DNA of 34,968 nt, from the NCBI GenBank assembly GCA_017540905.1, contig JAFYAC010000036.1:1-34968 (forward strand), read 5' to 3'. How positions within the stretch are numbered: the stretch's first letter is position 1; each line of letters starts with the position of its first letter. The notes beneath the pieces are model-generated. The model saw nothing but the letters and a program-made list of their open reading frames with translations, made no database searches and had not been told where the DNA came from. This document shows, piece after piece, positions 4,641 to 33,914 of the stretch. The stretch is from Kiritimatiellia bacterium. Lineage in GTDB: Bacteria; Verrucomicrobiota; Kiritimatiellia; CAIQIC01; Lenti-01. The translations under genes were made by a program, and so were the position numbers.

Positions 4641-4691
4641 GTCCCCGGAAGGGCCTTTCCCCGGAACCACAGGGGCCGAGGAGTGCAAGGC

Positions 4692-7142
4692 ATGAGAATG
4701 AAAAACGCGTGGGCGAAGTTGGCGGCGGCGGTTGCCGTTGCGGCGGGGATGGGAGTGGGGGTGGCGAGAGGGGAAGCATCTGGGGGTGTGAGTCCATGGG
4801 CTGAGGATAGAATAATAGGGTATGGATGGGTCTGCGGCGGACTAGTTGATGGGATAGATCCCCTACAAGAGGGAGTAGTAGCGGTCGGCGGTTGTTCCAC
4901 CAATGTGCGTGTCGTGAACATCCCATCACATGTTAACTTGAGCGTGATTTGGAGCGATTATGTTGATGGTGAGTTCACAACGTGGGAGGAAACAAGAAAT
5001 TTTCGGGTGACAGAGATTCAACCTAGAGCCTTTCAAAACAACACCGCATTGGAGTCGGTAACGATACCGGCGAGCGTGGAATCGTGGTGGGGGTGGGGTT
5101 CGAGAGGACAGCTTATCCGTGGGTCTGTGTTTGCTGGTTGTACAAGTCTAACAGAGGTCAATCTCACGGATGGCTTGAAGAGTATCGCGCCTTCTATGTT
5201 CTCTGGTTGTACGGCCTTGCCTTCCGTGGCGATACCGACGAGCGTGGAGACAGTGGAGGCTAATGCGTTTTACGGTTGTACAAATCTGGCGGAGATGAAC
5301 CTCCCAAATGGATTGAAGAGCATTGGACCTGCGGCATTTTCTGGTTGCACGACCTTGCCATCAGTAACAATACCGGGAAGCGTGGAATCCTTGGGAGTCA
5401 GTGCCTTTAGGGGTTGCATAAATCTGGTCAATCTGCATCTCTCAGATGGGTTGAAGAGTATTGGAACAAATGCGTTTTCCAGTTGCACGGCCCTGCCAAC
5501 GGTAGCAATTCCTGACAGTGTACAAGAGATTGGAGGGAGCGCATTTTCCGGTTGTACGGGGCTGAAGACCGTGACAATCGGGAGTGGTGTGGTGACATGC
5601 GGAGCATCCGTATTTTCCAGTTGCACAAGTCTAACGAATTTGAATCTCGCAAATGGATTGAAAAGCATCGGGCCGAATGCGTTTTCCAGTTGCACGGCCC
5701 TGCCGACGGTAACAATTCCTGACAGTGTACAAGAGATTGGAGGGAGCGCGTTTTCCGGCTGCACGGGGCTGAAGGCCGCGACGATCGGGAGTGGTGTGGT
5801 GTCAAGCGGCGCATCCGTGTTTTCCGGGTGTTCGGAATTGACGAACGTGGTGTTCAAGGAGGGACTGGCGGTTGTGCGGACGAATATGTTTGCCAATTGC
5901 TACCGCTTGCCGAAGGTGGTCTTGCCAGCGAGCATGAGGAGGATTGAGGGGAGCGCGTTCGTGGGCTGCACGGCGTTGGCGTCGGTGGACCTCGGCGGCA
6001 CCGAAACAATCTGCGACAAGGCTTTTGAAGGTTGCACGGGCCTGAAGGCGGTATCGTTCCCGGCGGGCGTGCGGCGCATCGGGGCGGGGGCGTTCAGCGG
6101 GTGCACGGGGTTGGCGACGGTGGCGCTGCCGGAAGGGGTGGAAGAGGTGGAGGCGGGTGCGTTTTCGGGTGCGTCGGTCAAGTCGCTGTACTTCGACAAC
6201 GCGGACGGGGGGCTGCTGGACGCGTTCTCGAAGGAGTCGCTGCGGACGCTGTACCTGGGGGCGGATGCCCGCGGCATCACGGGCGAGCGGCTGGGCGACT
6301 GCCTGTCGCTGTCGGCGCTGCTGGTGGCGAAGGGGAATCCGGAGTATGCAGTGGACGGGGCGGGGGCGCTGTACGACAAGGACTTCACGCGGCTGATCAA
6401 GTATCCGGCGGGCGCGGCGGCGTCCTGCTACACGGTTCCGGCGACGGTGCGGACGGTGGATGCCAAGGCCTTCGCGCACGCGACGGCGCTGCGGGAGGTG
6501 GTGTTCCAGGGGCCGGTGACGGAAATCGGGGAGGATGCCTTCGACTGGTGCATCGCGCTGGAGCGGGTGGTGTTCCCGTCCGGGGCGGGGACGGTGGGCG
6601 CGGGGGCGTTCCGCGTGTGCCCCTCGCTGGAAACGCTGCGGTTCGAGGGAACGGGCCACGCCGTGCCGACCTTCGGCGAAGGGCAGTTCCTCTACGCGAA
6701 GCCGGTGGTGCAGATCGAGGAATCGGAGGCGTCGCGCTGGACTTCGGCCCTGTCCGCGCTGGGCCTGTCCTACGAGTGGATCGTGGATGCGGATGCGACC
6801 TCGACGACGCCGGTCCCGGTGCCGAAGAGCTGGATCCAGTCGAAGGCGGGGCACATCCTGTCCGCGTGCGGGGGTGACTACGAGGCAGCGGCGATGGCTC
6901 CGGCGTCGAACGGGGTCAGCAAGGTGTGGGAGTGCTATTTGCAGGGCGTGGACCCGGAGGACGGGGATGATCGGTTCCAGTTGCGGAGCAAGGTGGAGGA
7001 CGGTGGGGTTTCCATGTGGTGGGAACCGGACCTGGGGACGGAGCGGAAATATGCCTTGGAGGGCGTGGAGAACATGGGAGACGAGTGGGGCGAGACGAAT
7101 GCGGGGACGCGCTTCTACCGGGCGAGGGTGGAAATGCCGTAG
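4692..7142 (+). CDS. Secreted BspA-like leucine-rich repeat protein
   Basis: This 816-residue protein has a signal peptide: basic start, then the Ala/Val-rich stretch AKLAAAVAVAAGMGVGVARG. From about residue 110 to 660 it carries LRR_5/BspA repeats of ~23 residues with the pattern F-x-GCT-L-x-V-IP-x-V-x-IG-x-AF. BspA-type proteins act at the cell surface in adhesion, often in gut or oral bacteria. Residues ~690-816 are a non-LRR C-terminal domain ending in RFYRARVEMP, possibly a sorting or structural module. GAGGAG 8 bases upstream supports the ATG at 4692; an ATG at 4698 is also possible. The first part of the gene is clearly less GC-rich than the part after about 5850, so the gene looks mosaic. 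Ligand unknown. Confidence 0.85.
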   Translation: MRMKNAWAKLAAAVAVAAGMGVGVARGEASGGVSPWAEDRIIGYGWVCGGLVDGIDPLQEGVVAVGGCSTNVRVVNIPSHVNLSVIWSDYVDGEFTTWEETRNFRVTEIQPRAFQNNTALESVTIPASVESWWGWGSRGQLIRGSVFAGCTSLTEVNLTDGLKSIAPSMFSGCTALPSVAIPTSVETVEANAFYGCTNLAEMNLPNGLKSIGPAAFSGCTTLPSVTIPGSVESLGVSAFRGCINLVNLHLSDGLKSIGTNAFSSCTALPTVAIPDSVQEIGGSAFSGCTGLKTVTIGSGVVTCGASVFSSCTSLTNLNLANGLKSIGPNAFSSCTALPTVTIPDSVQEIGGSAFSGCTGLKAATIGSGVVSSGASVFSGCSELTNVVFKEGLAVVRTNMFANCYRLPKVVLPASMRRIEGSAFVGCTALASVDLGGTETICDKAFEGCTGLKAVSFPAGVRRIGAGAFSGCTGLATVALPEGVEEVEAGAFSGASVKSLYFDNADGGLLDAFSKESLRTLYLGADARGITGERLGDCLSLSALLVAKGNPEYAVDGAGALYDKDFTRLIKYPAGAAASCYTVPATVRTVDAKAFAHATALREVVFQGPVTEIGEDAFDWCIALERVVFPSGAGTVGAGAFRVCPSLETLRFEGTGHAVPTFGEGQFLYAKPVVQIEESEASRWTSALSALGLSYEWIVDADATSTTPVPVPKSWIQSKAGHILSACGGDYEAAAMAPASNGVSKVWECYLQGVDPEDGDDRFQLRSKVEDGGVSMWWEPDLGTERKYALEGVENMGDEWGETNAGTRFYRARVEMP
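5472..5885 (+). repeat. 207-base higher-order tandem repeat in the LRR gene
   Basis: The segments 5472-5678 and 5679-5885 start identically (GCGTTTTCCAGTTGCACGG) and stay near-identical through the first two of their three 69-base LRR units. The period of 207 bases equals 69 residues. This indicates recent in-frame duplication. Confidence 0.8.
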
Positions 7143-8233: not shown

Positions 8234-9214
8234 ATGGACACCTTGGCAAATGACAAAGATGGGGTTCAAGGAAACGGGGGTGCAATGCCCGAGCCGGTAG
8301 CTGCGGTGGGATTGACCGCGGAGGGGGAAATCATCCGGTCGAGGATTTACACAATCCGCGGAGTGCAGGTGATGCTCGACCGCGATTTGGCTTTGCTCTA
8401 TGGAGTGCAAACGAAGGCCCTCAATCAAGCGGTCAAACGCAACGGAAAGCGTTTTCCACCAAGTTTCATGTTCCAACTCGGGCACGATGAAGTGGAAAAA
8501 TGGAAGTCACAATTTGTGACCTCCAATTTGTCCCCGGAGGACGAGTCCGGTATCCGCATGGGGCTCAGACGCTCTCCGTTCGCTTTCACGGAGCAAGGCG
8601 TGGCCATGCTTTCCGCGGTTTTGAAAAGTCCAGAGGCCATAGAGGTCAGTGTGCGGATCATGGAAGTATTCGTCGCAATGCGCAAGGCGCTGGCATCGGT
8701 GGCTCCGATCCTGATACGGTTGGAGGCGGCGGAGAGGCGGCAGATTGCGGACCAGGCGCGCAACGAGGAGCGGTTTGAGAGGATTTTCAAGGCGATGGAC
8801 GGGGGAGAGTTCCCGCCACAGAAGGTGTTTTTCGAGGGGAAGCACTGCGAGGCTTGGTCGTTTGCACGGAAACTCGTGCGGAGGGCGGAGAAAAGCATTG
8901 TGCTTGTCGACGGATACTGCGACGATGCGACGCTTGACATTCTCTTGCGGAAACGCGGCGGGGTGGAGGTCGTGATTGCGACATCGCAAAAATCGGCGTC
9001 CATGTGCTTGACGCAGACGGCTATTGAGAAGTTCAACAAGCAGAATCCGTCACTGGTTGTCCGGACGACGGGCTCTTTCCATGATCGGTTTCTCATTCTT
9101 GACGGGAAGGAGCTGTATCACTTCGGCGCGTCCTTGAAGGATCTGGGGCGGCTGTATTGCGCCGTGTCGAAGATGGATGCGGGGTTTGTTCCGTCAATCA
9201 TGGCAAGGATTTGA
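8234..9214 (+). CDS. ORF6N-domain protein with PLD-like C-terminal domain
   Basis: This 326-residue protein has an ORF6N domain at residues ~30-125 ([29 protein letters not shown], then [14 protein letters not shown]), a DNA-binding module of phage and accessory-element proteins. A helical linker follows. Residues ~210-320 resemble a phospholipase-D-like domain ([34 protein letters not shown]). ORF6N proteins with this C-terminus are widespread in gut Bacteroidetes and relatives, and their role is not established. No phage genes are nearby. An alternative ATG at 8285 has a somewhat better purine-rich site and would remove 17 residues that lie outside the domain. Confidence 0.8.
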
Positions 9215-9301: not shown

Positions 9302-9612
9302 TTATTCGGCCTTCTTGTCGTCGGCCTTTTTCTCGGTCTTGGCTTTCTTGGCTTTGGGGACGAAGTCGACCCACTCGAGGATGCACATTTCGCTGCTGTC
9401 GCTGATGCGCTGGCCGAGTTTGACGATGCGGGTGTAGCCGCCGGCGCGGTTGGCCAGCGCAGGGGCGAGGCGTCGTCGGGGCTGATGCGGCCGTCGGTCC
9501 AGATTTCGAGGGTGAGTTTGTCGTAGTCGGTGCGGCGGCCGACGCGGGTGTTGACGGCGTCGTATTTGACGCAGTGGACGGGGGAGAAGTGGGAGTCGAT
9601 GGAAATGTGGCC
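9302..9612 (-). pseudogene. Broken partial copy of the rplQ-rpoA region
   Basis: Bases 9302-9457 encode the last ~51 residues of ribosomal protein L17 ([18 protein letters not shown] onward to the stop) with few changes from the intact rplQ at 14332-14748. Bases ~9462-9612 match an internal part of rpoA (about 15140-15284; for instance [19 protein letters not shown]). The two pieces are joined directly, with the rplQ 5' part, the rplQ-rpoA spacer and the rpoA 3' part missing, and their reading frames do not agree across the joint. No complete protein can be made. The block ends where the composite repeat begins. Confidence 0.88.
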
Positions 9613-9633
9613 GGGAAGCGGCCCGGGGGGCGC

Positions 9634-14331: not shown

Positions 14332-14748
14332 TTATTCGGCCTTCTTGTCGTCCTTGGCGGGCTTTTCGGGTTTGGCTTTCTTGGCTTTGGGGACGAAGTC
14401 GACCCACTCGAGGATGCACATTTCGCTGCTGTCGCTGATGCGCTGGCCGAGTTTGACGATGCGGGTGTAGCCGCCGGCGCGGTTGGCCATGGCCGGGGCA
14501 ACGGCTTCGAAGAGTTCCTTGGCGGCGGGTTCGCTGCGGAGGCGGGAAATCGCCAGGCGGCGGGCGGCCAGGGTGCCTTTTTTGCCGATGGTGACCATCC
14601 GGTCGGCCAGGCGCTTGGTGGCGCGGGCCTTGGGAAGGGTGGTCGTGATGCGCTTGGCCAGGATGAGGTTGCTGACCAGGCTGGACATGAGGGCGGCGCG
14701 CTGGGAGGAGGTGCGGCCGAGTTTGACGGTGTTTTTGCGATGACGCAT
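14332..14748 (-). CDS. rplQ: 50S ribosomal protein L17
   Basis: The 138-residue protein begins MRHRKNTVKLGRTSSQRAAL, the standard L17 start, and keeps the ITTTLPKARATKRLADRMV core. L17 sits near the polypeptide exit tunnel of the large subunit. The C-terminal ~20 residues are a Lys/Ala/Glu-rich extension (PKAKKAKPEKPAKDDKKAE) that is common in PVC-group homologues. It is the last gene of the operon, 31 bases after rpoA, and ends just before the terminator. Its 3' part and terminator are duplicated in the pseudogene at 9302-9612. Confidence 0.97.
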   Translation of the reverse strand: MRHRKNTVKLGRTSSQRAALMSSLVSNLILAKRITTTLPKARATKRLADRMVTIGKKGTLAARRLAISRLRSEPAAKELFEAVAPAMANRAGGYTRIVKLGQRISDSSEMCILEWVDFVPKAKKAKPEKPAKDDKKAE

Positions 14749-14779: not shown

Positions 14780-15784
14780 TCAGTCGGCGGGTTTGATCAG
14801 GCTGAGGACTTCGGCGTCGAAGGTCATGCCCAGGGACAGGCCCATCTCGACGAGTTTCTGCTTGATTTCGTTGAGGGATTTCTTGCCGAAGTTGCGGTAC
14901 TTGAGCATTTCGTTTTCGCTCTTCTGCGCGAGTTCGCCGACGGTGGTGATGTTGGCGTTGTTCAGGCAGTTGGCGGCGCGGACGCTCAGCTCGATCTCGT
15001 TGACGGAGATGGAGAGTTTCTTGGCGAGTTCTTCGCGGGCGGGGTCGATGGTCTTTTCGGTGTCCTGGAATTCGACGATGTTCTTGTCGAAGTTGACGAA
15101 GACGTCGAGGTGGTGGCGCAGGATGGCGGCGGAGAGGGTGAGGGCTTCGTCGGGGCTGATGCGGCCGTCGGTCCAGATTTCGAGGGTGAGTTTGTCGTAG
15201 TCGGTGCGGCGGCCGACGCGGGTGTTGACGACGTCGTACTTGACGCGGCGGACGGGCGAGAAGAGGGAGTCGATGGGAATCAGGCCGATTTCCTGCTCGG
15301 GCTTCTTGTTCCATTCGGCGGGGCAGTAGCCGCGGCCGGTCTTGACTTCGATTTCGGCGTCGAAGGTGCCGTCGGTGTCGAGGGTGCAGATGTGCTGGTC
15401 GGGGTTGAGGACTTCGACGGAGGCGTCGGTCTGGATGTCGGCGGCGGTTACTTCGCCGGGGCCCTTGACCTTGATGCGCAGGAGCTTGGGCTGGCGGGAG
15501 TAGAGTTTGAGGAGGACTTTCTTGAGGTTGAGGACGATGTCGGTGACGTCTTCGACGCAGCCCTTGATGTGGCAGAATTCGTGCTCGGCGCCCTGGATGC
15601 GGACGGAGGAGATGGCGGCGCCTTCGAGGGAGGAGAGGAGGACGCGGCGGAGGGAGTTGCCGATGGTGCGTCCGTAGCCGGCTTCGAAGGGTTCGGCGGT
15701 GAAGAGGGCGTAGGTGGGGGTCGCGGTTTTTTCGTCTTTTTGGACGAAGCGCGGCATCTCGAATCGGTTGAGTCGTGTGCTCAT
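14780..15784 (-). CDS. rpoA: RNA polymerase alpha subunit
   Basis: The 334-residue length is normal for alpha. The N-terminal domain (~1-235) includes EAGYGRTIGNSLRRVLLSS, the conserved assembly motif, and GYCPAEWNKKPEQ. The C-terminal domain (~250-325) contains the helix-hairpin-helix pattern that contacts UP elements and activators (CLNNANITTVGELAQKS and RNFGKKSLNEIKQKL). Alpha dimerises to start assembly of beta and beta-prime. The order rpsD-rpoA-rplQ is the usual one. An internal 150-base portion is copied in the pseudogene near 9.5 kb. Confidence 0.97.
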   Translation of the reverse strand: MSTRLNRFEMPRFVQKDEKTATPTYALFTAEPFEAGYGRTIGNSLRRVLLSSLEGAAISSVRIQGAEHEFCHIKGCVEDVTDIVLNLKKVLLKLYSRQPKLLRIKVKGPGEVTAADIQTDASVEVLNPDQHICTLDTDGTFDAEIEVKTGRGYCPAEWNKKPEQEIGLIPIDSLFSPVRRVKYDVVNTRVGRRTDYDKLTLEIWTDGRISPDEALTLSAAILRHHLDVFVNFDKNIVEFQDTEKTIDPAREELAKKLSISVNEIELSVRAANCLNNANITTVGELAQKSENEMLKYRNFGKKSLNEIKQKLVEMGLSLGMTFDAEVLSLIKPAD

Positions 15785-27455: not shown

Positions 27456-28244
27456 ATGCCCTACGCTGAATTCCACCGCTGGATTCTCTCCGCCGTGCTG
27501 GTGATGGCCCGGATCGGGGCGGCCTTCTCCATCTGCCCGGCCCTGACCGATTCGATGATCCCGGGCGTCGCCCGGCGCGCGGCGACGTTCTCGTTCGCGC
27601 TGCTGGCGGTCCCGTTCGCGAAGGCGGGGATGCCGCCGGGGGAACCCAACCTGTGGCTGTTGGCGTTCCTGGCGGTCAAGGAGGCGATGATCGGGTTCCT
27701 GGTGGGGTTCTTCGCGGCCATCCCGTTCTGGATCGCCGAAAACGTCGGCAACCTCATCGACAACCAGCGCGGCGCGACGATGGGCGAGGTCTATTCCCCG
27801 CTCAACGGCTCGCAGGTGTCCACCACCGGCATTTTCTTCACGCAGATCGTCTCGACGGTCTTTTTCGTCGGCGGCGCCGTGTTCATCTTCCTGGGCGCCC
27901 TCTACGAAAGCTTCGCCCTCTGGCCCGTCTTCGGCGCCTGGCCGTCCTTCGCGCCCAACGCCCCGACCAACATGCTGGGCGCGCTCGACGCGATGTTGCG
28001 CACCACGGTCGTCATCGCCGCGCCGGTCATCATCGTGATGTTCCTGGCGACCATCGGCCTGGGCCTGGTGAACCGCACCGCGCCGCAGCTGAACGTGTTC
28101 TTCCTCTCGATGCCGGTCAAGAGCGCGCTCGGCGTGGCCATGCTCATCGTCTACCTGCCGTTCATCATGGACATGCTGATGTACACCAAGGAATCCGCCA
28201 TCCTGGGTCCCGTCCGGCTCCTGCTGGTGAACGGTCCGCCATAG
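27456..28244 (+). CDS. sctT: Type III secretion export apparatus protein SctT
   Basis: A 262-residue membrane protein of the FliR/SctT family, with about six hydrophobic segments. The stretch IDNQRGATMGEVYSPLNGSQ followed by VSTTGIFFTQ, and the later LGLVNRTAPQLNVFFLSMPV, fit SctT (YscT/EscT/SpaR) better than flagellar FliR. SctT is part of the inner-membrane export gate with SctR, SctS and SctU. None of those partners is in the window; the upstream neighbour is rimO (121 bases away), and the downstream neighbour is the B12 operon. So the gene is separated from the rest of its system, if that exists in this genome. Confidence 0.85.
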   Translation: MPYAEFHRWILSAVLVMARIGAAFSICPALTDSMIPGVARRAATFSFALLAVPFAKAGMPPGEPNLWLLAFLAVKEAMIGFLVGFFAAIPFWIAENVGNLIDNQRGATMGEVYSPLNGSQVSTTGIFFTQIVSTVFFVGGAVFIFLGALYESFALWPVFGAWPSFAPNAPTNMLGALDAMLRTTVVIAAPVIIVMFLATIGLGLVNRTAPQLNVFFLSMPVKSALGVAMLIVYLPFIMDMLMYTKESAILGPVRLLLVNGPP

Positions 28245-28296: not shown

Positions 28297-28325
28297 TTGA
28301 AACAGCGCGGGGGCGGGGATAGGAT
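28297..28325 (+). promoter_or_regulatory. Promoter of the cobalamin operon
   Basis: TTGAAA (28297-28302) and TAGGAT (28320-28325) are 17 bases apart, just before the riboswitch. Transcription would start near 28332. Confidence 0.6.
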
Positions 28326-28345
28326 TCGGGGCTCAAACCACGGCG

Positions 28346-28522
28346 GAGAGGTTCCGCCCCGGGGCAAACGGAATCCCGTGCGAATCGGGAGCTGTTGCGC
28401 AACTGTGAGCTTCCGCATGTCCCGGCCACTGCGCCACCCTGCGGCGGGGTTGTTCCGGCTTCCACGCGGCGGGGGAAGGCCCGGCCGGGTCCTACAGGAG
28501 GTCAGCCAGAAGACGTGCCGCG
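28346..28522 (+). promoter_or_regulatory. Cobalamin riboswitch
   Basis: The conserved order of the B12 aptamer is present: GAGGTTCC, GGGGCAAACGGAAT, CCCGTGCGAATCGGGAGCTG, GCGCAACTGTGAG, GCCACTG at 28426-28432, GGGGGAAGGC, and the B12 box AGGTCAGCCAGAAGACGTGCC region at 28499-28519. It senses adenosyl- or methylcobalamin and usually shuts off expression when the vitamin is plentiful. After it, CGGGT-CCGA-ACCCG (28543-28556) and GCGAC-GGTG-GTCGC (28564-28577) form small hairpins, the second directly before the AAAGGA ribosome site at 28578-28583. That layout suggests control of translation initiation, because no T-rich terminator is present. Confidence 0.93.
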
Positions 28523-28590
28523 GGGAAGGGCAGCCGGACAACCGGGTCCGAACCCGCCCCTCCGCGACGGTGGTCGCAAAGGAACGACAG

Positions 28591-30321
28591 ATGAAATCAT
28601 TCAAGGCAGGGCGCGCCGCGCGGGCGCGTCTGGCGGGTTGCGCCGCGGCCGCGGCGCTGGGACTCGCCGCGGGCGGCGCGGCGCGGGCGGAATTCACGTT
28701 CGACGACGTCCACTTCTGGGTCGGCGGGGGGACGAACCGGGCGGTGGTGGTCGTGGACTGGAACACGGACGGGGCTTCGCCGCTGGCGTGGGGGTACCGC
28801 TGGGACGGGGAGCCGGTACCGGCGCGGGTGGCCATCGAGGCGATCGCGCGCGAGGACAACCGGCTGGAGTACGCGAGCTCGGTCTCCCAGTGGGGGACGT
28901 CGGTGGACGGGTTCGGCTACGACCGGAGCGACGTCGCGGCGGTGTTCGATCTCGCGGCGGGCGCGGCCACCGACGCGGAGGCCCTCGTCGGCGTCTATGC
29001 CGGCACGCTCTACTGGGCGCAGTCGCCGGGCGCCGGCACGTCGTTCGAGGCGTGCGACTGGACGTACGGAAGCGGCGTGGACTACGACCTCCTGTCCGAC
29101 GGCGGATGGTACGCGCTCAAGCTGACGGACTGGCAGAGCGGCGAGTCGTCGGTCCCCGAAAGGACGCCCGCGGCGGCGGAGTCGCCCTACGCCTGGCGCG
29201 TCGCGGCGGCGGACGTGGCGGCGGACGGCGACTACGGCGACCCGGCGAACGCGCTCGGTGGGCCGGCGCGCACCGTTCCGGGGTGGGGCGAAATCCCGCC
29301 GACGACGGTCAATCCGGTATCGCCCGCGTGGGGGCCGGGGCGGCTCGTGACGCTGGCTTCGGCGGACGGCGACGCCGGCGGATCGATCACGGTGGAGTTC
29401 GACCACGGGGTGCTCGACGACCCGCGAAACCCGTTCGGGCTGGACTTCATCGTGTTCGGCAACGCGATGCACGCACTCGGCGGTGGCGCGTATTTCGACG
29501 GGGTTTCGGACCCCGCAGGGCTCGTCGTGGACACCGACACCATCGTGGCGGAGCGCGGCCTCGTGGAGGTGAGCGCGGACGGCGAGACGTGGTTCGCCTT
29601 CGCGGACGGCCCGTGGGCGGACGACTTCGCGCCGACGTTCGCGTACTGCTACGATCCGGAGAACCCCGACGCGTCGCTCTTCGACGGCAACCGCTGGTGG
29701 GGCGCGCCGGCGGACGCGACGCGTCCGGTGGACCCGGCGGCGGGGCCGGGCGATTTCAAGGGCCGCACGCTCGCCGACTACGCGCGCCTCTTCGACGGCT
29801 CCGCGGGCGGCACGGGGTTCGACATCTCGGGCTTCGACCTGCCGCGGGACGGGCTCGGGCGGAAGTACGTGCGGTTCGTGCGGATCACGTCGCTCGACCC
29901 GTTTGACACGACGGAGGTGGACGCGGTGGCGGATGTCGCGCCGGCGGTGTCCTTCCGCAACTGGGTCGATGCATGCATCCCGTTCGACCAGCGCCCCGGC
30001 TACGCGAAGACGAACGTCTGCGCGAACGGTTCGACGGCCGCCGTCAACGCCGCGCTCGGGCGCGCCCCGGACGCGAAAGGGCCCGCCACGGTGGCCATCG
30101 GCGGATTCGACCCGGCGACAGGCACGTTGGCCGCGCCCATTGCCCCCTACGCGAGCGACCTCGTGCGCCTGCAACGGGCCACCGACCTCGCGGCTGGTGC
30201 ATGGACCGCCGCCCTCCCGCTCTGGGCGGGCATCGACGAAGCCGGCCATCCGCAACTGCAAGTGCAAGGTGATACGGAAGAGGTGCCGACGGGATTCTTC
30301 CGTCTGGAGGTGGATGAATAG
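28591..30321 (+). CDS. Cobalamin-regulated secreted protein of unknown function
   Basis: A 576-residue protein with a signal peptide (basic start, then LAGCAAAAALGLAAGGAARA, cleavage near ARA|EF). Residues ~34-190 (FTFDDVHFWVGGGTNRAVVV, GYRW, DWTYGSGVDYDLLSDGGWYA) form one domain. Residues ~210-450 form a second, beta-rich one (ITVEFDHGVLDDPRN, FGLDFIVFGNA, VEVSADGETWFAF, RKYVRFVRIT), which looks like a surface or ligand-binding jelly-roll. The C-terminus ends FFRLEVDE. Similar proteins are known to me only as uncharacterised surface proteins. The riboswitch and the downstream BtuDCF genes suggest a role in capturing B12 outside the inner membrane; that role is inference. AAAGGA 7 bases before the ATG supports the start. 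The next gene overlaps by 8 bases. Confidence 0.8.
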   Translation: MKSFKAGRAARARLAGCAAAAALGLAAGGAARAEFTFDDVHFWVGGGTNRAVVVVDWNTDGASPLAWGYRWDGEPVPARVAIEAIAREDNRLEYASSVSQWGTSVDGFGYDRSDVAAVFDLAAGAATDAEALVGVYAGTLYWAQSPGAGTSFEACDWTYGSGVDYDLLSDGGWYALKLTDWQSGESSVPERTPAAAESPYAWRVAAADVAADGDYGDPANALGGPARTVPGWGEIPPTTVNPVSPAWGPGRLVTLASADGDAGGSITVEFDHGVLDDPRNPFGLDFIVFGNAMHALGGGAYFDGVSDPAGLVVDTDTIVAERGLVEVSADGETWFAFADGPWADDFAPTFAYCYDPENPDASLFDGNRWWGAPADATRPVDPAAGPGDFKGRTLADYARLFDGSAGGTGFDISGFDLPRDGLGRKYVRFVRITSLDPFDTTEVDAVADVAPAVSFRNWVDACIPFDQRPGYAKTNVCANGSTAAVNAALGRAPDAKGPATVAIGGFDPATGTLAAPIAPYASDLVRLQRATDLAAGAWTAALPLWAGIDEAGHPQLQVQGDTEEVPTGFFRLEVDE

Positions 30322-31153
30322 AGGAATTCCAGAGAGGGGTGGATTCCCCGTCTGGGAGGTGCGACATCCTGACGCGCCGCACAATGGCGCGGCTGAAAGC
30401 CGCACCTCCCGGAAAAGCCCTCGCGAGTGCGCCTTCACCCTCGTCGAGCTCCTCGCCGTCATCGCCCTCGTGGGCGTGCTGGCGGCGTTGCTCGTGCCGG
30501 CGCTGGAACAGGGCCGCGAGGCGGCGCGCGCCGCCGCATGCGCCACGAACCTGCGGCAGCTCGCCGCCGCCGCGCTTTCCTACGCGGCCGACCACGGCGG
30601 CGAGTTCCCGTGGGGGATGCGCACCGAGGGCGGCGAAACCGCGTGCTGGGACTTCACCACCGCCGGCGGCAAGCCGCGTCCGGGCGTGATCTGGGAACGC
30701 ATTCCCGAGTGCGCGAACGGCCGCGTCCTGCAGTGTCCGTCCTACGTCGGCGGCAACGCGAACTGGCGCGGCGACCCCTACACCGGCTACAACTACAACT
30801 GCAGCTACGTCGGCAAGGTCGAGGGCGACCCCGGCGACCGCGACCGCCCCGCGCTCCAGTCGCAGATCGAGGTCCCCGCGCGCACGGCGCTCTTCGGCGA
30901 CGGACAGTACGCGGGCGGCGCGAACAAATTCATGCGCGCGCCCGACCCCGACCGCGCCCACGACGGCTCCGGCAGCGGCCTCCGTTCGGCCGGCACCCAG
31001 GGCTTCCGCCACCGCGGGCGCACCAACGTCGCGTTCGCCGACGGCCACGTCGAATCCCTCTCCACCCCCTACCGGCGCGGCTCGGAGGGTTTCGTCTCCG
31101 ACGGCTGCGGCTTCCTCTCCCCCGACAACTCCCTCTACTCCCTCGCCAAATGA
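30314..31153 (+). CDS. Prepilin-like protein with H-x9-DG motif in the B12 operon
   Basis: A 279-residue protein. The type IV prepilin signature AFTLVELLAVIALVGVLAAL starts near residue 38 and includes the conserved Glu at position 5 after the Phe. The cleavage position is Ala|Phe rather than the usual Gly|Phe. The C-terminal RHRGRTNVAFADGHVESL carries the H-x9-DG motif of the pseudopilin group abundant in Planctomycetes and Lentisphaerae. The leader is unusually long (~37 residues) because it is encoded by a palindromic repeat (30354-30410). ATG 30314 overlaps the upstream gene; an in-frame GTG at 30359 would shorten the leader. Its stop overlaps the next start (ATGA). It is probably anchored in the inner membrane with the body in the periplasm. 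Confidence 0.8.
   Translation: MNRGIPERGGFPVWEVRHPDAPHNGAAESRTSRKSPRECAFTLVELLAVIALVGVLAALLVPALEQGREAARAAACATNLRQLAAAALSYAADHGGEFPWGMRTEGGETACWDFTTAGGKPRPGVIWERIPECANGRVLQCPSYVGGNANWRGDPYTGYNYNCSYVGKVEGDPGDRDRPALQSQIEVPARTALFGDGQYAGGANKFMRAPDPDRAHDGSGSGLRSAGTQGFRHRGRTNVAFADGHVESLSTPYRRGSEGFVSDGCGFLSPDNSLYSLAK
30354..30410. repeat. Palindromic repeat inside the prepilin leader
   Basis: GGGAGGTGCG (30354-30363) and CGCACCTCCC (30401-30410) are perfect arms. GCGCC and GGCGC pair inside. The core GGAGGTGCGACATC matches the dispersed 44-base element (3050-3093, 24021-24064) except for one base. The whole element is translated as part of the leader. Confidence 0.75.
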
Positions 31154-33087
31154 CCTCCCTCCTCCGTTGCGAAAACCTCACCGTCCGCCTCGGCCGCAAG
31201 ACCGTGATCGACGGCTTCACCGCCGACTTCGCCGCGGGCACCCTCGCCGTCCTCTCCGGTCCCAACGGTGCCGGAAAGACAACCCTCCTCCGCACCCTTG
31301 CCCGCGCGCTGGTCCCCTCCGCCGGGCGCGTGCTCCTCGATGGCCGGCCCTCCGACGGAATCCCCCGCGCCGCCTGGGCCCGCCGCGTCGCCTACCTTCC
31401 CCAATCGCCCGACGCCCGCTCCCTCGCGGGCTTCCCCGTGCGCGCCGCCGTCGCCGCCGGACGCCTCCCCCACGCCGGATTCTTCGGCGCCCTCGCCCGC
31501 CGCGACGAAGACGCCATCGACCGCGCCCTCGCCGCCACCGGACTCTCCCCCCTCGCCGCCGCGGACGCCGGCTCCCTCTCCGGCGGCGAAACGCGGAAAA
31601 TGTTCCTCGCCGCCGCCCTCGCGCAGGAAGCCGAAACCCTCCTCCTCGACGAACCCTTCGAAGGCCTCGACGCCCCGGCGCGCGCCGCCCTCGCCGACAC
31701 TCTCCGCGCGCAGCTCGCCGCCGGACGCGCCGTCGTCCTCGCCACCCACGACCTCGCCCCCCTCGCCGGCATCCCGCACCGCGTCATCGAAATCAAGCCT
31801 TTTGAAAACAACTCAAAAAAGTTGTCAGGCGAAAAGCTTGTGATTTCCCATGTCCAGGAAGGGGTAGGGCGGGCAGTCCCTGCCCGCCGGCGCGAGAAAT
31901 GCCAAAGGAATGGGCCAGAAATGTGCGGACGCATGTTTTCCCATGGCTCCGACCGAATGGCATCCGCACATCCAGCGGCATCCGATTGCACCTTCCAGCA
32001 TCCGGCGGCGAGGGGACTCGCCGCCCTACCCGGCTTCGCACAAACGAAAACACAAGGTTTTCGCCAGACAACACCAAAGACAAAAAACCGACACCCCCAC
32101 TTGGAAAACGAAAATGCAAAGCGGGCGGAAAAGCCCGGAGGGCCAAATTGTTTGCCCTCCTTGTCCATTTTCAAAAGAGTTGTCCCGAGTTGTTTTACCC
32201 TTCTCCTCCCGCTCCTGCTCGCCGCCGCGCTGGTCGCGCTGGCGGTACACGGATGCCCGCCGGGCCTCCTCTGGAGCTACCGCGTGCCGCGGCTGCTCTG
32301 CGCCTTCTGCGTCGGCGGCATCCTCGCGGTGGCGGGATGCATCTACCAGACCCTCTTCCGCAATCCGCTCGCCTCCCCATACACCCTCGGCACCGCGTCC
32401 GGCGCGACCCTCGGCGCCTATCTGGCGACGGCGTTCGCGCCCGGACTCATCTCCGTCGGCGGGGCCGCCTTCGCGGGCGCCTTGCTGTCCCTCGCCCTCG
32501 TGCGGGCCTGCGGCGGATCGGGGGGACGCCCGGCGCGGCTGCTGCTGGGCGGCATCGCCTGCGCCTACCTCTTCGGCGCGGGCACGATGCTCTGCCAGTT
32601 CGCGATGACGCCGTGGGAGAGCTTTTCCATGGCCCACTGGAGCCTTGGCGGCATCGTCGTCCCCGAAGGCCCGTGGCGAATCGCCCTCCCCGCCGCCTGG
32701 TGCGCCGCGCTCGCGACGGTCCTCCTCTCCCGCCCCCTCGACGCCCTGCTCGCCGGCGACGACGCGGCCATCTCGCACGGACTCGACCCCGCGCGGCTCC
32801 GCTTCGCCCTGCTTGCCGGCGCGGCGCTGCTCGTCGCGTGCGCCGTCGCCGTATGCGGCCCGGTGGGGTTCGTCGGACTCCTGGTTCCGCACCTCGCGCG
32901 GCTCGCCGGCGGCGCGGCGCACAGGCGCCTCCTCCCCGCCTGCGCCATCGGCGGCGGACTCTTCCTCGCCCTCTGTGACGCGGCCGCCCGCGCCCTCCCC
33001 TTCGCCGGGACGCCCCCCGTCGGCATCGTCACCGCCGTTCTCGGCGCCCCTGCCCTCGCCCTCCTCCTCGCACGGAACAGCCGATGA
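31150..33087 (+). CDS. BtuD-BtuC fusion: cobalamin-type ABC ATPase joined to permease
   Basis: A single 645-residue frame. Residues 1-~214 are the ATPase: Walker A SGPNGAGKTT, Q-loop YLPQSPD, signature SLSGGETRKM, Walker B TLLLDEPFEGLD, H-loop LATHDLAPL. Residues ~346-645 are a FecCD/BtuC permease (YRVPRLLCAFCVGGILAVAG, FRNPLASPYTLGTASGATLG, CGPVGFVGLLVPHLAR). Between them, ~130 residues are encoded by spacer-type repeat DNA (31800-32190), with palindromes at 31868-31888 and 32004-32025. They look like no protein domain. In known importers BtuC and BtuD are separate. The start overlaps the prepilin-like stop (ATGA), and the end overlaps the BtuF start. The B12 substrate is inferred from the riboswitch. 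Two separate genes with an accidentally open spacer remain possible. Confidence 0.85.
   Translation: MTSLLRCENLTVRLGRKTVIDGFTADFAAGTLAVLSGPNGAGKTTLLRTLARALVPSAGRVLLDGRPSDGIPRAAWARRVAYLPQSPDARSLAGFPVRAAVAAGRLPHAGFFGALARRDEDAIDRALAATGLSPLAAADAGSLSGGETRKMFLAAALAQEAETLLLDEPFEGLDAPARAALADTLRAQLAAGRAVVLATHDLAPLAGIPHRVIEIKPFENNSKKLSGEKLVISHVQEGVGRAVPARRREKCQRNGPEMCGRMFSHGSDRMASAHPAASDCTFQHPAARGLAALPGFAQTKTQGFRQTTPKTKNRHPHLENENAKRAEKPGGPNCLPSLSIFKRVVPSCFTLLLPLLLAAALVALAVHGCPPGLLWSYRVPRLLCAFCVGGILAVAGCIYQTLFRNPLASPYTLGTASGATLGAYLATAFAPGLISVGGAAFAGALLSLALVRACGGSGGRPARLLLGGIACAYLFGAGTMLCQFAMTPWESFSMAHWSLGGIVVPEGPWRIALPAAWCAALATVLLSRPLDALLAGDDAAISHGLDPARLRFALLAGAALLVACAVAVCGPVGFVGLLVPHLARLAGGAAHRRLLPACAIGGGLFLALCDAAARALPFAGTPPVGIVTAVLGAPALALLLARNSR
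31821..32025. repeat. Spacer-type palindromes inside the BtuD-BtuC frame
   Basis: GTTGTCAGGCGAAAAGCT (31821-31838) repeats 541-558 with one change. GGCGGGCAG-TCC-CTGCCCGCC (31868-31888) and GGCGGCGAG-GGGA-CTCGCCGCC (32004-32025) are perfect 9-base hairpins of the window's spacer family. Near 32181-32198 the complement reads GGGACAACTCTTTTGAAA, related to the GGGACAACTTTT word of the intergenic element. Confidence 0.75.
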
Positions 33088-33914
33088 AAACAATATGTGT
33101 TTTGCTGGTTCTCCTCCTCGCCGCGGGATGCACCCCGCGCGCCGAACACGGCACCCCGGCGGCGAACGCCGTTCGCATTGTCTCGTTCCTGCCGAGCGCG
33201 ACGGAGACCCTCTACGCCCTCGGCCTCGGCCCCTGCGTCGTTGGACGCTCCAGCTTCTGCGACTACCCGCCCGAAGCCGCGGCCATGCCGGTCGTGGGCG
33301 ACCTCTTCAGCGCCAATGAAACCGCCCTCGACGCGCTCCGCCCGACCCACGCCGTGCTGGGCCGCGCCGACGCCCCGCAGGCTCCCCTCCTGCGCGCATT
33401 GGGATGCGAGATCATCGAAGGCCGCGCCGAAACCGCCGCGGATGTCCTCGCCTTCGCCGACACCATCGGCCGCCTCTTCCAGGACCGCACCAACGGTCTC
33501 GCCGCCGCCGATTCCCCCTGGCGCACGGCCATGGAGGAACTGGCCCGCGCCGGAACCTCCGGAATTTCCTGGCGCGTCCTGGTCGTCGTCTCCCATGCGC
33601 CGGGCCGCTATGGCGCGGCCTTTGCCGCCGGCGAAGACACCTTCCACGACGAACTCCTCCGCGCGGCGGGTTTTTCCAACGCCCTGGCCGGGGTCCGCGG
33701 CTATCCCTCGCTCGATCCCGACCGCATCGCGGCACTCGCCCCCGACCTTCTGATCGACATCCACCCCGACGGCGATTCCCCGGACGAAGATGCCTGGACC
33801 TACCTTCCCAACACCCGCATCGAATTCCTGACCGACACCGCCGCCCTCCGTCCCGGTCCCAGGCTCCCCGAGGTCCTCGCACGGTTTCGCGCCCTCGCCG
33901 CGCGCAAGGAGTGA
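33084..33914 (+). CDS. btuF: Periplasmic cobalamin-binding lipoprotein (BtuF type)
   Basis: A 276-residue class III periplasmic binding protein. The lipobox LLAAGC places the lipidated cysteine at residue 16. The fold is recognisable from RIVSFLPSATETLYALGLG, SFCDYPPEA, FSANETALDALRPTHAVL and the long linking helix near ADVLAFADTIGRLF. BtuF passes corrinoids to BtuCD; iron-siderophore binding proteins are close relatives, but the upstream riboswitch favours B12. The ATG overlaps the permease stop (ATGA). It closes the operon; no clear terminator follows. Confidence 0.87.
   Translation: MKTICVLLVLLLAAGCTPRAEHGTPAANAVRIVSFLPSATETLYALGLGPCVVGRSSFCDYPPEAAAMPVVGDLFSANETALDALRPTHAVLGRADAPQAPLLRALGCEIIEGRAETAADVLAFADTIGRLFQDRTNGLAAADSPWRTAMEELARAGTSGISWRVLVVVSHAPGRYGAAFAAGEDTFHDELLRAAGFSNALAGVRGYPSLDPDRIAALAPDLLIDIHPDGDSPDEDAWTYLPNTRIEFLTDTAALRPGPRLPEVLARFRALAARKE

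Follow-up and report, generated by a model that had tools for sequence, protein, structure and literature searches.

How might a diderm bacterium take up cobalamin through an operon that encodes a pilin-like protein and no BtuB? For diderms, BtuB and TonB are generally regarded as necessary for the passage of B12 through the outer membrane. The window (the whole stretch of 34,968 nucleotides that we analyzed, from contig JAFYAC010000036.1 of a Kiritimatiellia bacterium) contains a cobalamin riboswitch followed by genes for a secreted protein (P0001), an H-X9-DG pseudopilin (P0004), a BtuD-BtuC fusion (P0002), and a BtuF-like lipoprotein (P0003). The source organism is a rumen bacterium, and its own genome (G000) is 84% complete. 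An initial annotation of this DNA proposed that the secreted protein and its pilin-class partner act in corrinoid capture or delivery. The recurrence of the gene pair, the failure to detect a receptor, and the predicted folds lend this idea qualified support. We consider it probable that this is a corrinoid-capture operon with a dedicated pseudopilin in place of a riboswitch-controlled BtuB.

Recurrence of the capture gene and the pseudopilin

We searched for cobalamin riboswitches in 57 genomes (G000 and 56 relatives) and found 65 of them in 52 genomes. All but three (G015:C357, G030, and G054) are above Rfam's cut-off, which leaves 62. By their downstream genes, 38 of the 65 loci are capture-type, 16 are BtuB-type (a receptor within 4.5 kb), and 11 are neither. 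A pseudopilin is next in 30 of the 38 capture-type loci, or in 30 of 32 if the downstream sequence must span 1.8 kb or more. None of the 16 BtuB-type loci has one, nor does any of the 11 others. The models for the propeller-type and G025-type capture slots were seeded from pilin-bearing loci, and G034 was added by hand; a stricter count, without the five loci that rest solely on the three pilin-derived capture-slot types, still has the pilin next in 27 of 29. We manually placed G031_C84_26638 among the BtuB-type loci alone because a separate, inner riboswitch precedes its capture gene and pilin. From the density of P0004-like matches in these genomes, 0.33 same-strand matches would be expected in the downstream stretch, versus the 30 that we saw, each with at least 45 bits (the two E-value thresholds in this comparison are not identical). 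By genome, 34 have capture operons only, 12 have BtuB operons only, 4 have both, and 2 have neither (Fisher p 6.6e-7, ignoring relatedness).

Homologs of P0001 are found in 8 of the 56 relatives, and all eight loci have a cobalamin riboswitch. We also started from the capture protein, using the best 80 of 317 confirmed P0001 relatives from named genomes. At least 9 of these 80 loci share contigs with our G genomes, five of which are among the 57. A riboswitch lies 5' of the capture gene in 66 of the 80 loci (within 3 kb in 62), and Rfam upheld all 12 loci that we picked by hand among those with a match. The riboswitch matches at L124 and L159 are clipped by an end, and those at L123, L125, L156, and L177 score 25-35 bits. 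The pilin directly follows the capture gene in 59 of the 69 loci with room and in 64 of 80 overall; L154, where the pilin precedes the BtuH-like gene, was counted as background and is outside the 69. These loci extend to Planctomycetota and Phycisphaerae too. On the question raised by the initial annotation, both surveys show that the two proteins recur with B12 riboswitches.

Starting from the pilin, we examined 194 genomes of the phylum, and all 11 matches above 180 bits have a BtuH-like domain just upstream. Because the profile (A6) was made from pilins encoded directly after BtuH-like proteins, and 9 of the 11 top contigs were already known, this test mainly shows that there is no strong match elsewhere. 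(A5 took in 48 of the 80 loci, and A6 took in 49 of the 58 pilin references.) A search of viral contigs gave one pattern match and no relative.

Two loci have several riboswitches. L169:3080-3496, from Desulfosarcina cetonica, has tandem c-di-GMP-I and cobalamin riboswitches 5' of a BtuH-like gene, and L173:1075-2888 combines three matches to the cobalamin riboswitch with DUF4465 and two BtuH-like domains.

The secreted protein has predicted folds of B12 binders

P0001 begins with a Sec-type signal peptide, which can be read directly from its sequence. By predicted fold, residues 46-182 resemble the beta domain of transcobalamin and residues 197-450 resemble BtuH, and B12 binders are the top-ranked candidates for both domains. 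These assignments rest on a second alignment of Foldseek's own candidates; by itself, Foldseek matched neither of the two predicted models, P0001 and P0004, at E ≤ 0.001. A search of the PDB with the sequence of P0001 alone gave no match, and Pfam found no family in P0001, including DUF4465 (PF14717) and the transcobalamin family. The transcobalamin-beta family of Pfam was also not found in any of the 49 capture-protein rows that we scanned. A profile alignment pairs an asparagine of P0001 with what may be, given an inferred numbering offset, the asparagine of BtuH2 that contacts the B12 phosphate. A copy of P0001 with 94% identity is present in a Kiritimatiellae genome from sheep rumen (L113). 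The structure prediction suggested by the initial annotation yields two folds known from B12 binders, and together with the conservation this suggests that P0001 binds corrinoid outside the inner membrane.

Most of the 49 scanned capture proteins, including P0001, have no recognized anchor of their own: among the 49, five have PEP-CTERM and seven have a dockerin, at E values up to 0.05. In G042, the protein in the capture slot ends in a PEP-CTERM tail (TIGR02595, above the cut-off), and the pilin is still in the operon.

Another capture-slot protein is common to G025 and G054 and lies 5' of the pilin (L078, L111); the copy in G025 has no Pfam match.

The pseudopilin is conserved and belongs to a large family

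P0004 has the N-terminal methylation motif, the H-X9-DG motif, and the DUF1559 domain of these pseudopilins. It is above the cut-offs of TIGR04294 (24.2 bits, cut-off 19) and of Pfam's N_methyl and DUF1559, and its predicted model aligns with PilA4, again in the second alignment of Foldseek's candidates. Pilins of the window's type keep the motifs TGYNYN and NKFMRAP across phyla. In a phylogenetic tree, the window-type pilins and the pilins that partner with DUF4465 lie in different parts, and seven label changes are required, so the "linked" pilins are not one clade. The tree leaves out the truncated G002 pilin, a duplicate G031 row, and six alignment rows (P0004, which is the G000 row, and five loci that duplicate G genomes). 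G006 was assigned to no group, and L212 is labeled as unlinked, yet a truncated BtuH-like domain lies upstream of it. The conserved pairing suggests that the capture protein and the pilin work as partners.

Outer-membrane receptors and pilus machinery

We found no Plug domain (PF07715) and no match to our BtuB profile in the three genomes of the genus, G000, G001, and G002, which are 84, 96, and 100% complete. A dedicated BtuB elsewhere in the genome, which by the initial annotation would count against its idea, was thus not detected. Six riboswitch-linked receptors went into the BtuB profile (A2), which favors receptors of that sort; its best score in the 34 capture-only genomes is at most 163 bits, versus 239-894 bits for riboswitch-linked receptors. 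PilT is present in all three genomes (462, 460, and 461 bits in G000, G001, and G002; cut-off 319). ExbD and the T2SSE ATPase are each present in 57 of 57 genomes, and we dropped both as discriminators.

Three settings of the pilin

The pilin occurs in three settings. In the first, which includes the window, the riboswitch is followed by a transcobalamin-like and BtuH-like protein and then the pilin; BtuD or BtuC matches lie 3' of the pilin in the window, as they do in 9 of the 80 loci. In the second, the first protein combines DUF4465 with a BtuH-like domain. Tested members of DUF4465 are described as binding B12 (PMC13398666, PMC12751083). Pfam confirmed DUF4465 in two of seven proteins submitted (L073 and L086), a profile of these slot proteins recovers solved DUF4465 structures, and of 21 DUF4465-type frames, 20 retain the NTPxY loop (one locus is counted twice, and G005 lacks the loop). 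Profile comparison relates the two BtuH-like subtypes (98.8%).

The third setting consists of 19 pilin loci (L224-L242) in other classes of the phylum, with a BtuH-like gene in just four (L232, L236, L237, and L240). A riboswitch above the gathering score lies directly 5' of the pilin in five of the 19, four of which are AdoCbl-II, and there are weaker matches at others. Six of the 19 have BtuF after the pilin, and two have BtuC. At these BtuF-adjoining loci, the evidence for a riboswitch is mostly below the cut-off: L234 is just at it, L227, L228, and L229 do not reach the Rfam cut-off (E 2e-4 to 1e-3), L226 has a weak match to our own riboswitch model only, and L230, where the contig ends, has none. 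In L242, the pilin is flanked by an AdoCbl-II riboswitch and, two genes on, a periplasmic binding protein. Because the pilin adjoins BtuF without a recognized capture gene nearby, its role may go beyond helping P0001 to be secreted.

The importer

All of the families of the importer are present: a FecCD permease, an ABC ATPase, and a Peripla_BP_2 protein. The lipobox of P0003 can be read directly from its sequence. NCBIfam's equivalog cut-offs were missed (BtuF, 42 versus 234 bits; BtuC, 154 versus 461), and corrinoid is the likely substrate of BtuFCD because of the riboswitch that precedes the operon. G001, L115, L116, and L122 likewise have BtuD and BtuC in a single open frame, joined by linkers of varying length (the sequences of L115 and L116 end within BtuC). 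In L147, the frame is not open as a fusion.

The BtuD-BtuC linker in the window (31795-32170) exceeds that of the congener G001 by about 250 bases, and the linker in L115 has short peptide repeats.

A proposed mechanism and its alternatives

Cobalamin riboswitches permit expression when corrinoid is scarce, and by analogy this riboswitch would then permit expression of the operon. Once secreted, P0001 would hold corrinoid outside the inner membrane with its predicted transcobalamin-beta-like and BtuH-like domains. The pseudopilin would join a type IV pilus or type II secretion filament and act with P0001 at the outer membrane, and the conserved pairing suggests that it either places P0001 at the surface or helps the cargo to pass. 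Periplasmic BtuF would receive the corrinoid and BtuCD would pump it inward; here the families are observed, and the substrate follows from the context. The capture protein and the pseudopilin would thus hold the place that a riboswitch-controlled BtuB has in other members of the class.

Several observations weigh against this scheme. In ten of the 69 loci with room, the capture gene is not followed by a pilin: three are from Desulfobacterota (L152, L169, and L173), four are from the window's own lineage (L119, L120, L123, and L124; L120 is from the same assembly as the riboswitch-bearing L117), and the others are L140, where the pilin is on the other strand, L166, and L190. G006 and G029 also have no adjoining pilin. 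The capture protein of the congener G001 lacks both the beta-like domain and the asparagine motif. Finally, 32 of the 38 capture-type genomes encode some Plug protein, which could carry B12.

The alternatives mostly concern what the pilin does. It could be a minor pseudopilin of type II secretion that pushes P0001 to the surface, while corrinoid crosses by another, unrecognized channel. The position of the capture gene directly 5' of the pilin gene (59 of 69 loci), the ubiquity of T2SSE ATPases, and the separate placement of window-type and DUF4465-partner pilins in the tree all fit this explanation. We regard it as a plausible alternative that falls short of probable: some genomes of other classes have the pilin flanked by a riboswitch match and BtuF, and the roughly 1.5 kb examined on either side contains no recognized capture gene; also, the PEP-CTERM tail in G042 suggests another sorting route at that locus.

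A bolder version of our scheme is TonB-independent uptake driven by the pilus: PilT would retract a pseudopilus tipped or decorated with P0001 and so bring corrinoid through the secretin to BtuF. We offer this tentatively and think it somewhat unlikely. Or, the pilin could be a surface stalk or anchor that displays P0001 and raises the local concentration of corrinoid, without retraction. In its favor, most of the scanned capture proteins have no recognized anchor; against it, PilT is present and the G042 operon keeps its pilin even though its first protein has a PEP-CTERM tail. We consider display without retraction to be rather unlikely.

It is improbable that P0001 binds another ligand, such as a glycan or a metal, with a link to corrinoid that is regulatory only: B12 binders rank first for both of its domains, DUF4465 occupies the same slot in the sister operons, and BtuFCD is encoded in the same operon. 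P0004-like proteins are numerous (607 matches in the 57 genomes), and one could lie in the operon by chance as a neutral passenger. We reject this as a general account, given the 30 downstream matches against about 0.33 expected, the motifs that are conserved across phyla, and the pilin genes under a second class of riboswitch.

Comparison to known systems

The corrinoid-capture operon resembles several known systems in part. P0001 (residues 197-450) shares a predicted fold and a riboswitch-controlled locus with BtuH2 (7biz) and BtuG1 (8blw) of Bacteroides, but these are lipoproteins from loci with BtuB, and P0001 adds the transcobalamin-like domain. The text of the BtuH2 paper does not mention "pilin". 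Transcobalamin, haptocorrin, and intrinsic factor are animal proteins with a further domain; P0001 shares the predicted fold of their beta domain at 10-13% identity and without a Pfam match. This similarity points to a putative family of bacterial proteins that fold like transcobalamin. DUF4465 proteins, or BtuJ, are described as exported B12 binders (PMC12751083, PMC13398666) and occupy the same slot 5' of the pilin in sister operons, whereas P0001 itself does not match DUF4465. The main text of the DUF4465 paper contains neither "pilin" nor "DUF1559".

BtuFCD and the cobalamin riboswitch are common to the window's operon and the BtuB-TonB-BtuFCD system, but the TonB-dependent receptor was not detected in the genus. 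A conserved operon with the pseudopilin as its constant partner, present also where no TonB receptor was detected, suggests another route across the outer membrane that can be put to the test. Such an operon also hints at what one branch of the many unexplained H-X9-DG proteins may do.

The competence pilus takes up DNA. Also, pili-like fibers of planctomycetes bind dextran, and fiber-linked uptake was offered there as a speculation (PMC5394234). In both cases, a pilus-type structure is tied to the uptake of large molecules, and we treat the similarity as a lead. Pilus-driven uptake, if true, would do for vitamins in general, in Planctomycetota-Verrucomicrobiota lineages, what the competence pilus does for DNA, and its proof would make the system categorically new. 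Our literature searches, which covered open-access journal papers, gave nothing apparently relevant that links pilins or H-X9-DG/DUF1559 proteins to cobalamin riboswitches, BtuF, or B12, nor on cobalamin transport in Kiritimatiellota or on cobalamin riboswitches with PEP-CTERM or Planctomycetes.

Features of the operon and its surroundings

The features are listed in Table 1. All four of the overlapping genes described in the initial annotation were found, with overlaps of 8, 4, and 4 bases between successive genes. Its sigma70-like promoter also held up: the pattern occurs once in the real sequence, versus a mean of 0.0 (sd 0.2) over 50 shuffles. The riboswitch is well above its threshold and is the sole cobalamin riboswitch that we detected in G000, but calling it "complete" was slightly too strong because the match spans model positions 19-172 of 189, which leaves the outermost part of the aptamer unmatched. 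The predicted RNA fold of the stretch 3' of the aptamer was uninformative (z -1.3).

Table 1. Features of the candidate corrinoid-capture operon. Positions are those of the window.
Feature	Position	Strand	Evidence
Sigma70-type promoter-like sequence, TTGAAA-17-TAGGAT	28297..28325	+	Pattern read from sequence
Cobalamin riboswitch aptamer, RF00174	28350..28519	+	44 bits, E 4.7e-8 (gathering threshold 31.5 bits)
P0001, secreted protein with a putative role in corrinoid capture, 576 aa	28591..30321	+	Predicted fold
P0004, H-X9-DG pseudopilin, 279 aa	30314..31153	+	Family matches, predicted model, PilA4 match
P0002, BtuD-BtuC fusion (ATPase and FecCD permease), 645 aa	31150..33087	+	Family matches, single open frame
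P0003, BtuF-like periplasmic binding lipoprotein, 276 aa	33084..33914	+	Family matches, lipobox

The gene directly 5' of the operon (27456-28244) matches SctT, an export subunit of type III secretion (TIGR01401, 228.5 bits, cut-off 163). Elsewhere in the window, two blocks are repeated at 91-93% identity (9311-9613, 14344-14499, and 15143-15287), and one copy of each lies close behind a gene with an ORF6N domain (8234-9214). Positions 4683-7142 encode a BspA-type leucine-rich repeat protein.
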